From Pyrinomonas methylaliphatogenes (GTDB taxonomy: Bacteria > Acidobacteriota > Blastocatellia > Pyrinomonadales > Pyrinomonadaceae): a stretch of 64,000 nt of DNA. Location: positions 62,082 through 126,081 of the forward strand of contig NZ_CBXV010000007.1 of NCBI RefSeq assembly GCF_000820845.2, given 5' to 3'. Of this stretch, positions 28,294 to 33,925 are shown piece by piece. A program made the translations under genes and the position numbers. The notes beneath the pieces are model-generated. The model did no database searches. It worked only from the letters and a program-made list of their open reading frames with translations, and was not told the DNA's origin. Numbering within the stretch: the first letter of the stretch is position 1; each line of letters starts with the position of its first letter.

Positions 28294-29985
28294 TTATTGC
28301 GAGCGATCTTTTGAAGAAGATTTCGGCAGACCCTTTTCAACTGCTCTCTCGACCGTCGCCAGTCGCGCAACCATCTGCACCGCCTTGTTCTCCAGCCTGT
28401 TTGCAATCGACAATGTTCTCTCCAAATCCTTCTCCCCCAACGCAGAGAAGGCCCGCATCAACTCGGCTGAGTCGGCAAAACTACTGGGATCATTGAGAAT
28501 CGGTTTTGACCGAGAACCCTTTTGTTCTTTGGCGCCGACATCGGCCAGCGAATTGATCGTGGCTACGCCATCTTGCAGCATGAGCATCGCCTCCGTCGGC
28601 GCAAAATGGGCCGTCTCGGCAGCAATAGTTAGTAGAGCGACAGCATAGATCCCTTTCGGCAAGGCGTCGGCCGAGGTCCTTTTCACTTCGTAAAGGATGG
28701 TCGTTAAAAGATCTGGCTCTCGTTTCTCGTGTGCGACTTTGGCGATCTCTGCCAACAGCAGCATCTTCTGCGTTCCATCTCTCATCTTTCGCGCTATGCT
28801 GAGCGCTTCGAATAGTTCGCCCCGGCCAAGGTGGGTTTTAACCCGCGCTTTGAGCAGCAGTTCACCCCATGACAGCCTCTTCTTCTCGTCTTTCAGCTTG
28901 TCGATCGCCTCCTGCGCCGCTTCGAAGTCACCTCTAGCCATCGAGCTGATGATCTCAGCCTCCGAACCATCTCCACCGTTCTTGCCGATCGCTCCTTTCA
29001 CTGCAGCCACCTGCACCTGAATGGCGTCGAGTAATTGGTTCGGTAGGCCAGCGCTCAAACGTTTGGCCGTCGCGTCCAAAGCCTCTGTTAGTTGAGGAGC
29101 GTAGCGCGGAGACAAAGCCGCTAACGTTGCTGCCAACGTCGCTTGGCACAACGTCCTGAAACTGAGCGTGTTCTGTTGTAGCCCCTGATCCTTAACGAGG
29201 CTTTCCTCGGATTCGGCCAAAGACTCCCCGAGCACTTGATACCCGATTGACACGAACTGGAAACGCAACCTCTCATCTGACTCCTTCACTTCTGGCGAAA
29301 CCTCTGCTGAGGGGAAGTACGGAAAGAGATACGCGATCATGTTATTTAACCCGACAAGAGCCACCGTGCGCGGCTGTCGCAAAAAGTTCCCTAGCGAACG
29401 CTCTGCTACAGTGTTAGCCAGAGAAGGATCCTTCTCCCTGATCCTCGTCAAAATCGGCGCAAACATCGGCGACGTGTTCCGCGCAAGGCTCTTTTCCAGC
29501 ACCGCGGCGGCAAGCCTGACGTCCGTCTCGGCCAAACGGTAGGCCGTGAAGGCCAATCGCTTGGTTTGCGGATCGGTCCCCATTACCCGCGCGAAATCCG
29601 AATCGGCTTCATCCTCTTTCGCTGTCTTCTTCAAAAGCTGATCCGCTAGCGCTCGGTCCCTGGGAAAAAGGTAGCGGAGGATGATCGTTCTGGCCTCTTC
29701 TTTATCGAAGTCCTTGTCGGTTTGACTCTCTACCTTATCCCACAGGTCGACGAAAACGGCGCGCGATCTTTCCGCCGATTCAGTCCAGAGCAACGACGCG
29801 GCTTTAGCTTTGACCCGCACGACATCGAGCGGATTCTCTAATCTATCAGCAGCGTTTTGTACCGCTTCGACTTCTTGCATCGCACGTCGGTATTTGAGCC
29901 ATGCCTTTCTCACCGTTTGCCTTCCCGTTGCGTTAGTCATAAGCACCGTCGCTGCTATGATGATAGAGCAAATCACGTGCTTCAT
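28294..29985 (-). CDS. exported alpha-helical repeat protein, unknown
   Basis: A 563-residue protein. ATG 29985 is chosen because AGGAG lies four bases upstream and a signal peptide follows (MKHVICSIIIAATVLMTNATG). The rest is helix-rich with pairs resembling TPR-like repeats (e.g. ARTIILRYLFPRDRALADQLLKK and ETDVRLAAAVLEKS). No catalytic motif is visible. Similar long exported helical proteins occur in Acidobacteriota without assigned function. A 14-bp palindrome GACGAATGTTCGTC (30028-30041) lies about 45 bases upstream and could be an operator. Confidence 0.6.
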   Translation of the reverse strand: MKHVICSIIIAATVLMTNATGRQTVRKAWLKYRRAMQEVEAVQNAADRLENPLDVVRVKAKAASLLWTESAERSRAVFVDLWDKVESQTDKDFDKEEARTIILRYLFPRDRALADQLLKKTAKEDEADSDFARVMGTDPQTKRLAFTAYRLAETDVRLAAAVLEKSLARNTSPMFAPILTRIREKDPSLANTVAERSLGNFLRQPRTVALVGLNNMIAYLFPYFPSAEVSPEVKESDERLRFQFVSIGYQVLGESLAESEESLVKDQGLQQNTLSFRTLCQATLAATLAALSPRYAPQLTEALDATAKRLSAGLPNQLLDAIQVQVAAVKGAIGKNGGDGSEAEIISSMARGDFEAAQEAIDKLKDEKKRLSWGELLLKARVKTHLGRGELFEALSIARKMRDGTQKMLLLAEIAKVAHEKREPDLLTTILYEVKRTSADALPKGIYAVALLTIAAETAHFAPTEAMLMLQDGVATINSLADVGAKEQKGSRSKPILNDPSSFADSAELMRAFSALGEKDLERTLSIANRLENKAVQMVARLATVERAVEKGLPKSSSKDRSQ

Positions 29986-30027
29986 AGTTCTCCTAATTTT
30001 ACAGCGCCTGCTGAATCGGTGTTTGTT

Positions 30028-30041
30028 GACGAATGTTCGTC
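30028..30041. promoter_or_regulatory. palindrome GACGAATGTTCGTC upstream of the exported protein
   Basis: A perfect 6-2-6 inverted repeat 43 bases before ATG 29985. It shares GTTCGT with the conserved box before the two Cys-rich precursor genes. Confidence 0.4.
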
Positions 30042-30126
30042 TCATCTAACGGCGAAAATTTTATCGCTTGGCGCTCTGTGTAAGGGAACCGCTTCAGCCG
30101 AGCGATCTCACGTCCCCTCGAAGAAT

Positions 30127-30603
30127 TTATGGCAAGATGACTCCAGGGCCCTTCTCTCCGGAATCTTGGATGTAACCACACTCAAACGCGCAACCAATGA
30201 CCACGACGACGCCAGTCCCGATGCAACTGGCGCATGTTCCCCAATCACCATTTGCGCAAGAATCTACGCAATGTAGGAGTAAATCAGGTGAAACGTTTCT
30301 GGCTAGGCATCCTTTAAAACACTCTCAGTCGCCAGCTTCCTGTGCAGGCGAGCAAAAGCATGCTCTATTTACGCGTGTACTTGTAGTTTTTGCGCTGTTT
30401 CCTTCCTTGGAGAATGATTTGGTTCTTCCCTTTAGGTCGATCATCCGTGAACTAGGCTTTCCGCCCGTTCCCTTAAAGCGAGCCGCCTCTACGTTCGACT
30501 TGAAGAGGAGCTTGGTCTCCGACGAAGCAGCTTGAGCGGTGATTGAGCCGCCAGAGAAAATCGCCAACAACAAAATGATTCCAAGTGAATATGTGTTGCT
30601 CAT
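30127..30603 (-). pseudogene. secreted Cys-rich precursor peptide interrupted by an in-frame TGA
   Basis: ATG 30603 (AGG upstream) opens a 92-codon frame with a signal peptide (MSNTYSLGIILLLAIFSGGS) and a propeptide ending RACFCSPAQEAGD, then TGA (30327-30325). Reading past that TGA in the same frame continues for 65 more codons: ECFKGC, CVDSCANGDWGTCASCIGTG, VIGCAFECG, to TAA at 30127. The second part holds most of the Cys residues, in a pattern reminiscent of halocin C8-like bacteriocins. Either the gene is broken by one nonsense change or the TGA is recoded; both halves are clearly one ancestral protein. Its sequence is unlike any core gene nearby. Confidence 0.6.
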
Positions 30604-30707
30604 AATTTTCCTGCCTCTCTCAACTCAGTCATAAGGGGCTGAATTGGCGTTTTCCAGACTCGACCTTCGTTCTTTTATTGCCTTCTGAATTATGGAAACG
30701 AACAAGC

Positions 30708-30745
30708 TGGGAGAATCTTAACGCCCGTCGGCGGAGAATCTTCAA
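30708..30745 (-). promoter_or_regulatory. conserved upstream box of Cys-rich precursor A
   Basis: The minus strand holds two AAGATTCTCC elements about 22 bp apart, separated by GCCGACGG. The same arrangement (AAGAATTCTCC ... GCCGATGG ... AAGATTTTCC) occurs at 33984-34022 before precursor B. A GTTCGT follows both. It could be a shared activator site. Confidence 0.5.
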
Positions 30746-30843
30746 TTGGCGCCACCCTAGAGCGAAATACTCCTCTCAAGACATCTCCTCACAAAACTTT
30801 AGCAGCTCTAATGAAAGCCGGAGAGGCATCGCCCTAAGGCAGA

Positions 30844-30857: not shown

Positions 30858-30923
30858 GATAGAATGGAGGAAGTAATATGTGTTCGTGTTGCCTGATTTG
30901 TCGGGCGAATCGGTTGAAGCCGA

Positions 30924-30989
30924 CTAGAAGCTATCTCATTTACGGCATGATTCTTCCTCAGCTTTTGCCGCTTTTGAGATAACTTCTAG
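30924..30989. repeat. 66-bp imperfect palindrome with a dispersed right arm
   Basis: CTAGAAGCTATCTCA (30924-30938) is inverted with one mismatch at 30975-30989, and the arms extend inward to CGGCA/TGCCG. The right 32 bp (30958-30989) recur at 50581-50612 with two mismatches. It looks like a small dispersed REP- or MITE-type element. Confidence 0.65.
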
Positions 30990-31053
30990 CGCAACCTCAC
31001 TTGATGATCTAGTCATCGTCTCTTTGCCTCTTAGCCCCGGAGACAGGCAAGGA

Positions 31054-32989: not shown

Positions 32990-33072
32990 GTTTGCTTAGG
33001 TCAGGATCGTCTGGCTTCTCTGAACTATTGGGACCAATCTTGACATGCCGCTTAGTCCCATAGAGTTCCATA
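32978..33072 (-). repeat. gene-start duplication before the small membrane protein
   Basis: On the minus strand CTAAGC-(G/A)ACATGTCAAG(A/G)TT-G occurs at about 33026-33061 and again at about 32969-33003, period 57. The upstream copy overlaps the stop of precursor B; the downstream copy contains the ATG of the 88-residue gene. Confidence 0.7.
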
Positions 33073-33438
33073 TGAACAACCTACGGCGCTTCCAATACAA
33101 CCTATCCCACTGCCTGTTATCGCGCATGGGGCGAAAGCTATCTCAGCATTCCACCAGTTGAGCGCACCGCAGGTTATAATTGAGCCTAAAATCGCGCCGC
33201 CGCACCACGCCGCACTGCATTTGAACCAAGCACGCCAGCCACCGCGCCATCTTATTTTAACGAATTTTGCGCCACCAGAACGTGTACCTATTGCCTTGCT
33301 GAGGTATTGTTCCGCTAGTGGGGTTCCAATGTCGACGTTTGTGTACATGCCGGGTTCATCCAGTGGCTCCAAAGGTACGCCATTGCGGAAAGGCAATTCG
33401 TAAACTACCTCCCATTGATAAACATTATGGTCGGGCAT
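33052..33438 (-). CDS. Cys-rich C-terminal part of precursor B
   Basis: A 128-codon frame from ATG 33438 whose last 60 residues are Cys- and Gly-rich (FKCSAAWCGGAILGSIITC, CAITGSGIGCIGSAVGC), a pattern like halocin C8-type peptides. It has no signal peptide of its own and overlaps the end of the 33425-33925 frame by 14 bases, in the +1 frame. The natural product was probably one precursor made of both parts. As it stands it needs either translational coupling at ATG 33438, a +1 frameshift, or it is broken. Confidence 0.5.
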   Translation of the reverse strand: MPDHNVYQWEVVYELPFRNGVPLEPLDEPGMYTNVDIGTPLAEQYLSKAIGTRSGGAKFVKIRWRGGWRAWFKCSAAWCGGAILGSIITCGALNWWNAEIAFAPCAITGSGIGCIGSAVGCSYGTLWD

Positions 33439-33925
33439 GACTATAAACAATATTGGCAACGTATTGATCGACCAAGTTGCCGTAGTCATCGTAAAGATTG
33501 CCGATAGCAGTGCCATGCCATTCATACTCTAGGCTAAGAGTAGGGACCCATATCAACTCAATATATGAGCCACCCGTATTGTCCTGAGAGAATTTAATCC
33601 TTTGAAAACTTCCGCAGTCCCGGCACCCCATAGCAAGAGCCATCCTTTTTGATCTAGGGTATAGACCTGACAACATTGAAGACTCTTCAACTTTAGGTCT
33701 GCGACCCTTGTTTTCGAAGACTTTAAGGGCTGCGCGAACGTCTTTACTTTGTTCCTTCAGGAGCCTCACACGTGCTGCAACCTCCGGCCCACTTGCAGCC
33801 TTAAAAGCTCTATCTTTGAGTTGGTTATTATCGATTATCTTGCCGGTAGCTACCTTGGAATGGGCTAACGACAACGTCGTTAGCGAAAGAACCAGCGCTA
33901 GAAACGAATTGATTCTTTTATTCAT
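33425..33925 (-). CDS. signal-peptide-bearing N-terminal part of precursor B
   Basis: A 166-residue exported protein (signal peptide MNKRINSFLALVLSLTTLSLAHS; ATG 33925 preceded by a Shine-Dalgarno in GGAGGAAAGG). A middle CRDCG pair lies near residue 105 and the end reads NLVDQYVANIVYS before a stop. The continuation is in the 33052-33438 frame. The gene shares an upstream box with precursor A. A role in a secreted, proteolytically processed Cys-rich peptide is inferred from layout only. Confidence 0.5.
   Translation of the reverse strand: MNKRINSFLALVLSLTTLSLAHSKVATGKIIDNNQLKDRAFKAASGPEVAARVRLLKEQSKDVRAALKVFENKGRRPKVEESSMLSGLYPRSKRMALAMGCRDCGSFQRIKFSQDNTGGSYIELIWVPTLSLEYEWHGTAIGNLYDDYGNLVDQYVANIVYSHARP

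Follow-up and report, generated by a model that had tools for sequence, protein, structure and literature searches.

A probable nonsense mutation before the Cys-rich domain of a secreted-protein gene in Pyrinomonas methylaliphatogenes K22, a bacterium that decodes TGA as selenocysteine

Halocin C8 is made as a precursor that is secreted and whose C-terminal domain is hydrophobic and rich in Cys. Another kind of described system with which the locus studied here can be compared is the bacterial selenoprotein gene, of which selD of Pyrinomonas methylaliphatogenes K22 is an example. Such genes have one in-frame TGA, homology on both sides of it, and a genome that decodes selenocysteine (Sec). In the published bacterial SECIS (bSECIS) model, a stem-loop lies 16-37 nt after the TGA, has G in the first two positions of its loop and reaches a minimum free energy of -7.5 kcal/mol or lower (PMC13188914). 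Some known selenoprotein genes have no SECIS that fits the model (PMC13188914).

K22 is a thermophile with an optimum of 65 C, and no pseudogenes are listed in its genome paper (PMC4644332). The genome comprises 3,788,560 bases in 16 contigs. In the window, which is the whole 64,000-nucleotide stretch analysed here, a gene for a Cys-rich secreted precursor is interrupted by a TGA.

The interrupted frame and its homologs

On the minus strand, positions 30603-30127 form a single frame throughout, which consists of 92 codons, a TGA (30327-30325), 65 codons and a TAA. The features of the frame and of the gene next to it are as follows.

30325..30603 (minus strand): first part of the Cys-rich frame, 92 codons; start codon, signal peptide, polar linker with CFC, end at the TGA
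30325..30327 (minus strand): in-frame TGA; Trp, Gly or Ala at this column in homologs
30127..30324 (minus strand): second part of the Cys-rich frame, 65 codons; Cys-rich domain and TAA, assigned by homology
28294..29985 (minus strand): partner gene for a secreted protein, which adjoins or is fused with the Cys-rich domain in relatives

By eye, a ribosome-binding site, AGGCAGGA, precedes the ATG, and about residues 1-25 of the precursor form a signal peptide, MSNTYSLGIILLLAIFSGGSITAQA. The polar stretch that comes after it ends in CFC, and the Cys residues of the domain beyond the TGA are spaced CX3C-X12-CX3C-X7-CX2C-X10-CX3C. No second lesion was seen in the gene. The intergenic region upstream contains an inverted repeat at 30921-30993 (CTAGAAGTTATCTCA ... 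TGAGATAGCTTCTAG); short stretches similar to it are found at G000:C7:112662-112693 and G000:C3:185512-185580, so it is perhaps a small dispersed element.

Judged by sequence comparison, the tail after the TGA is real coding sequence. Against a profile built from the other homologs it scored 47.3 bits, and the best of 2000 shuffles of the tail itself scored 10.5. Homolog matches extend across the TGA without a change of frame (tblastn E-values of 1e-15, 1e-8 and 4e-7), and a whole-genome search with X at the TGA found stop-free homologs in two genomes of another genus (E 2.0e-7 and 2.2e-5). All eight Cys columns that the homologs share after the TGA are retained in the window sequence. The preliminary description of this locus, that one frame runs intact on either side of the TGA with 65 codons beyond it, is thus confirmed by the match of the tail to uninterrupted homologs.

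At the TGA column, seven homologs have Trp (four, all fused proteins of genus g10 with the motif GPWWDC), Gly (two) or Ala (one), and none has Cys. Given these residues, substitution in a Trp-, Gly- or Ala-type codon is the simplest origin of the stop. The preliminary description left open whether a Cys or Trp codon had mutated to the stop or the TGA was a recoded codon; a nonsense mutation is supported, though not one of Cys, since the site is never Cys in relatives.

Matches to the Cys-rich gene were found by profile search in 11 of 119 Pyrinomonadaceae genomes. Outside the family, 396 sampled genomes of the phylum gave weak matches only, and the plasmid and viral searches gave no relatives. 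The uninterrupted homologs in Pyrinomonadaceae (L003/L079 and L004/L080, and the fused L081-L085), which belong to an unnamed family, resemble the K22 gene in being secreted precursors with the eight Cys columns and a 583-aa-type neighbour, but at the column of the K22 TGA they have a sense codon, for Gly or Trp. A further difference of the g10 homologs is that their Cys-rich domain is part of the same polypeptide as the partner, with another C-terminal domain after it.

The locus had also been said to recall halocin C8-like bacteriocins. Halocin C8 and the K22 precursor are alike in general terms, as both are secreted and have a C-terminal Cys-rich hydrophobic domain. However, the resemblance was unsupported: the K22 protein has no Pfam or NCBIfam match at E-values up to 1, no relative of solved structure, and a different gene context with a large secreted protein as partner. 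The g10 proteins carry the domain within a long polypeptide and not at a releasable C-terminus. Nothing that we tested supports a bacteriocin role for the Cys-rich domain.

Selenocysteine decoding and the TGA of the window

The preliminary description called for a search for selA, selB and selC, and in the K22 genome selA, selB, selC (tRNA-Sec, anticodon UCA) and also selD are all present. The selD gene has an in-frame TGA in K22 and three relatives, so K22 decodes TGA as Sec and selD itself is a selenoprotein gene. No paper on selenocysteine in Pyrinomonadaceae was found in the literature. The selD gene of K22 served as the positive control for SECIS from the same organism. Formate dehydrogenases had been considered for this use; the two close homologs that K22 has both carry Cys at the Sec position, and selD was used instead. 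The selD SECIS is conserved in Pyrinomonadaceae as CUYGYUCAGGUKYUGAGCRRG, 32-33 nt after the TGA and with a GGU loop. The elements are located as follows.

L087:1550-1584 (plus strand): selD SECIS element
L088:1550-1584 (plus strand): selD SECIS element
L089:2347-2381 (minus strand): selD SECIS element
L090:2341-2375 (minus strand): selD SECIS element

No hairpin fitting the bSECIS model was found after the TGA of the window at either 37 or 65 C, whereas selD of K22 has a strong one. Among 400 random TGAs of the window, 299 have some model hairpin and 189 reach -7.5 kcal/mol; the candidate TGA has none. Folding of the stretch after it did not differ significantly from that of shuffled sequences (z-scores of -0.4 to +0.9), and the stretch is predicted to be unfolded at 65 C. 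The selD SECIS covariance model, which includes selD coding sequence and so tests likeness to the selD element rather than every possible SECIS, gave 46.6-51.8 bits on its own training selD genes and nothing comparable at the TGA of the window. An Rfam search over the locus gave nothing relevant. Hence the stem-loop suggested for this position is absent by both the published model and the selD comparison. The window gene shares with selenoprotein genes such as selD the single in-frame TGA, the homologous frame after it and the Sec-decoding genome, but it differs from them in having neither a SECIS-like hairpin nor homologs with Cys at the site.

The closest homolog of the Cys-rich gene, from the genome Bin_028 of another genus (L043, L062 and L078; JAUCQE010000237.1), also has exactly one in-frame TGA, at L043:858-860. 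It was the sole match in a contig scan with a two-row alignment. This TGA falls at a Cys column that is invariant in all other members, and a TGA at an otherwise invariant Cys is the usual sign of Sec/Cys exchange. Both selA and a Sec-type selD are present in Bin_028. A hairpin after the TGA fits the bacterial model at 37 C with -10.6 kcal/mol, but it lacks the GGU loop, and hairpins of -10 or lower follow 128 of 400 random TGAs; folding after the TGA was not significant against shuffles. About 10 of the 49 single-base routes to a stop in the Bin_028 gene are changes of Cys to TGA, so a chance nonsense mutation would strike a Cys about one time in five. Sec/Cys exchange at the Bin_028 TGA is therefore suggested, though not decided.

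Loss of the gene and the origin of the stop

Further evidence on the gene comes from the one other Pyrinomonas genome compared, that of a sister species (G001).

29088..30798 (no strand): stretch of about 1.7 kb absent from G001; junction with 4 bases of microhomology

In G001, DNA with 95-96% identity to the window passes directly from the intergenic region (30799) to the middle of the partner gene (29091), so that nothing is left of the Cys-rich gene and the partner gene lacks its first half. A junction with just four shared bases is not typical of an assembly artefact. The rest of the partner gene in G001 has one extra base within a run of G, either a real insertion or a draft error. The deletion indicates that the Cys-rich gene is dispensable in the genus. 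Where the two genomes were compared, the partner gene retains a pairwise dN/dS of 0.26, which makes a recent loss probable.

In our view the TGA of K22 is probably the result of a recent nonsense mutation that hit a dispensable and eroding gene, specific to the family, for a secreted protein. Stop-free homologs align across the TGA and have sense residues at the site, no SECIS was found, and the gene is deleted in G001; sense codons in intact homologs together with loss of constraint or other lesions in close relatives are what marks a nonsense pseudogene. Most genomes of the family also lack the gene. One codon just before the Cys-rich domain would have turned into TGA, and release factor 2 would terminate there to leave a 92-aa secreted stub without the Cys-rich domain. 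The K22 gene is thus presumably out of use, and the change to TGA presumably recent. Some observations speak against a pseudogene. Beyond the TGA the frame is wholly undamaged and no conserved Cys is missing, a state that old pseudogenes seldom keep. The partner gene is intact, K22 decodes Sec, the Bin_028 homolog also has a single in-frame TGA, and a SECIS that fits the model is missing from some known selenoprotein genes.

Three other explanations were weighed. If the TGA were read as selenocysteine, SelB and tRNA-Sec would give a Sec-containing, disulfide-rich secreted protein. The complete set of sel genes, with selD itself a selenoprotein gene, the frame intact on both sides of the TGA and the TGA of Bin_028 at an invariant Cys are in its favour, but we regard it as quite improbable, because a hairpin of the kind that most random TGAs of the window have is absent here, folding is no stronger than in shuffles, no homolog has Cys at the site, the Bin_028 TGA does not coincide with that of K22, and the sister species has deleted the gene. 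A broader form of the idea, in which the family includes true selenoproteins that rely on atypical SECIS elements, with Sec in place of a disulfide Cys of the Bin_028 protein and, with lower likelihood, at another position in K22, also seems unlikely. Leaky readthrough by a near-cognate tRNA, which would give little full-length protein and leave the short form as the main product, would explain why the downstream frame and all conserved Cys residues are intact. Near-cognate decoding of TGA would supply an aromatic residue, and four homologs have Trp there. However, we identified no signal for readthrough, sense codons are used by all the other stop-free homologs, and the genus can dispense with the gene, so we give readthrough only a small chance. 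Finally, a sequencing or assembly error, with the gene intact in the living strain, would fit the otherwise intact frame, since one base difference accounts for the stop. The difference is a substitution and not a homopolymer indel, and published coverage is 75x from MiSeq plus 454 (PMC4644332); we give such an error a low probability. A recent nonsense mutation remains the best explanation.

The partner gene and the intact form

In K22 and in the genomes G113, G003 and G030, the Cys-rich gene lies directly upstream of a gene of the 583-aa type. The partner protein of K22 has 583 aa from the first ATG (30045) and about 563 aa from a better start (29985). By eye, both the Cys-rich and the 583-aa-type proteins have signal peptides. 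Genus g10 (L081, L082, L083, L084 and L085) has a single polypeptide of about 900 aa that unites a 583-aa-type protein, the Cys-rich domain and, at the C-terminus, a domain in which DxNxNG-like motifs occur. In G134, the gene at L076:6337-7200 (minus strand) adjoins a 583-aa-type gene, which comes after it; it encodes a different precursor, also secreted, whose hydrophobic C-terminus contains Cys.

The Cys-rich domain is predicted with moderate confidence to form short helices (mean pLDDT 69, core about 80-86), and a fold search of the predicted domain in PDB gave no meaningful match. The best PDB sequence match was a plant antimicrobial peptide; its E-value of 0.45 is not significant, and it probably reflects just the CX3C...CX3C spacing. 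From their sequences, the intact homologs, which occur in some Pyrinomonadaceae only, consist of a signal peptide, a linker and a putative small disulfide-rich helical domain. The domain probably works outside the cytoplasm together with the downstream secreted 583-aa protein. The most economical reading is that the intact form would be a disulfide-stapled extracellular domain that acts with its partner, perhaps at the cell surface, and a structural or surface role seems plausible.

Elsewhere in the window, two overlapping frames at 33052-33525 and 33425-33925 (minus strand) resemble a single secreted precursor whose C-terminus is hydrophobic and Cys-rich and which a frameshift has split; the loci compared contained no homolog of it. 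These frames are flanked by a duplication of the upstream part and 5' end of cydA (32127-32317/34358-34548 and 31814-31911/34176-34273, with 96% and 86% identity).

In conclusion, a complete Sec system and an in-frame TGA are insufficient to call a selenoprotein, and the K22 candidate fails against the selD SECIS control of its own genome. The Cys/TGA pair of Bin_028 provides a directly testable case in a related genome; if Sec is used in this family, exported multi-disulfide proteins would carry selenocysteine. This study also describes a small two-gene secreted module that is limited to the family Pyrinomonadaceae and is being lost in Pyrinomonas.
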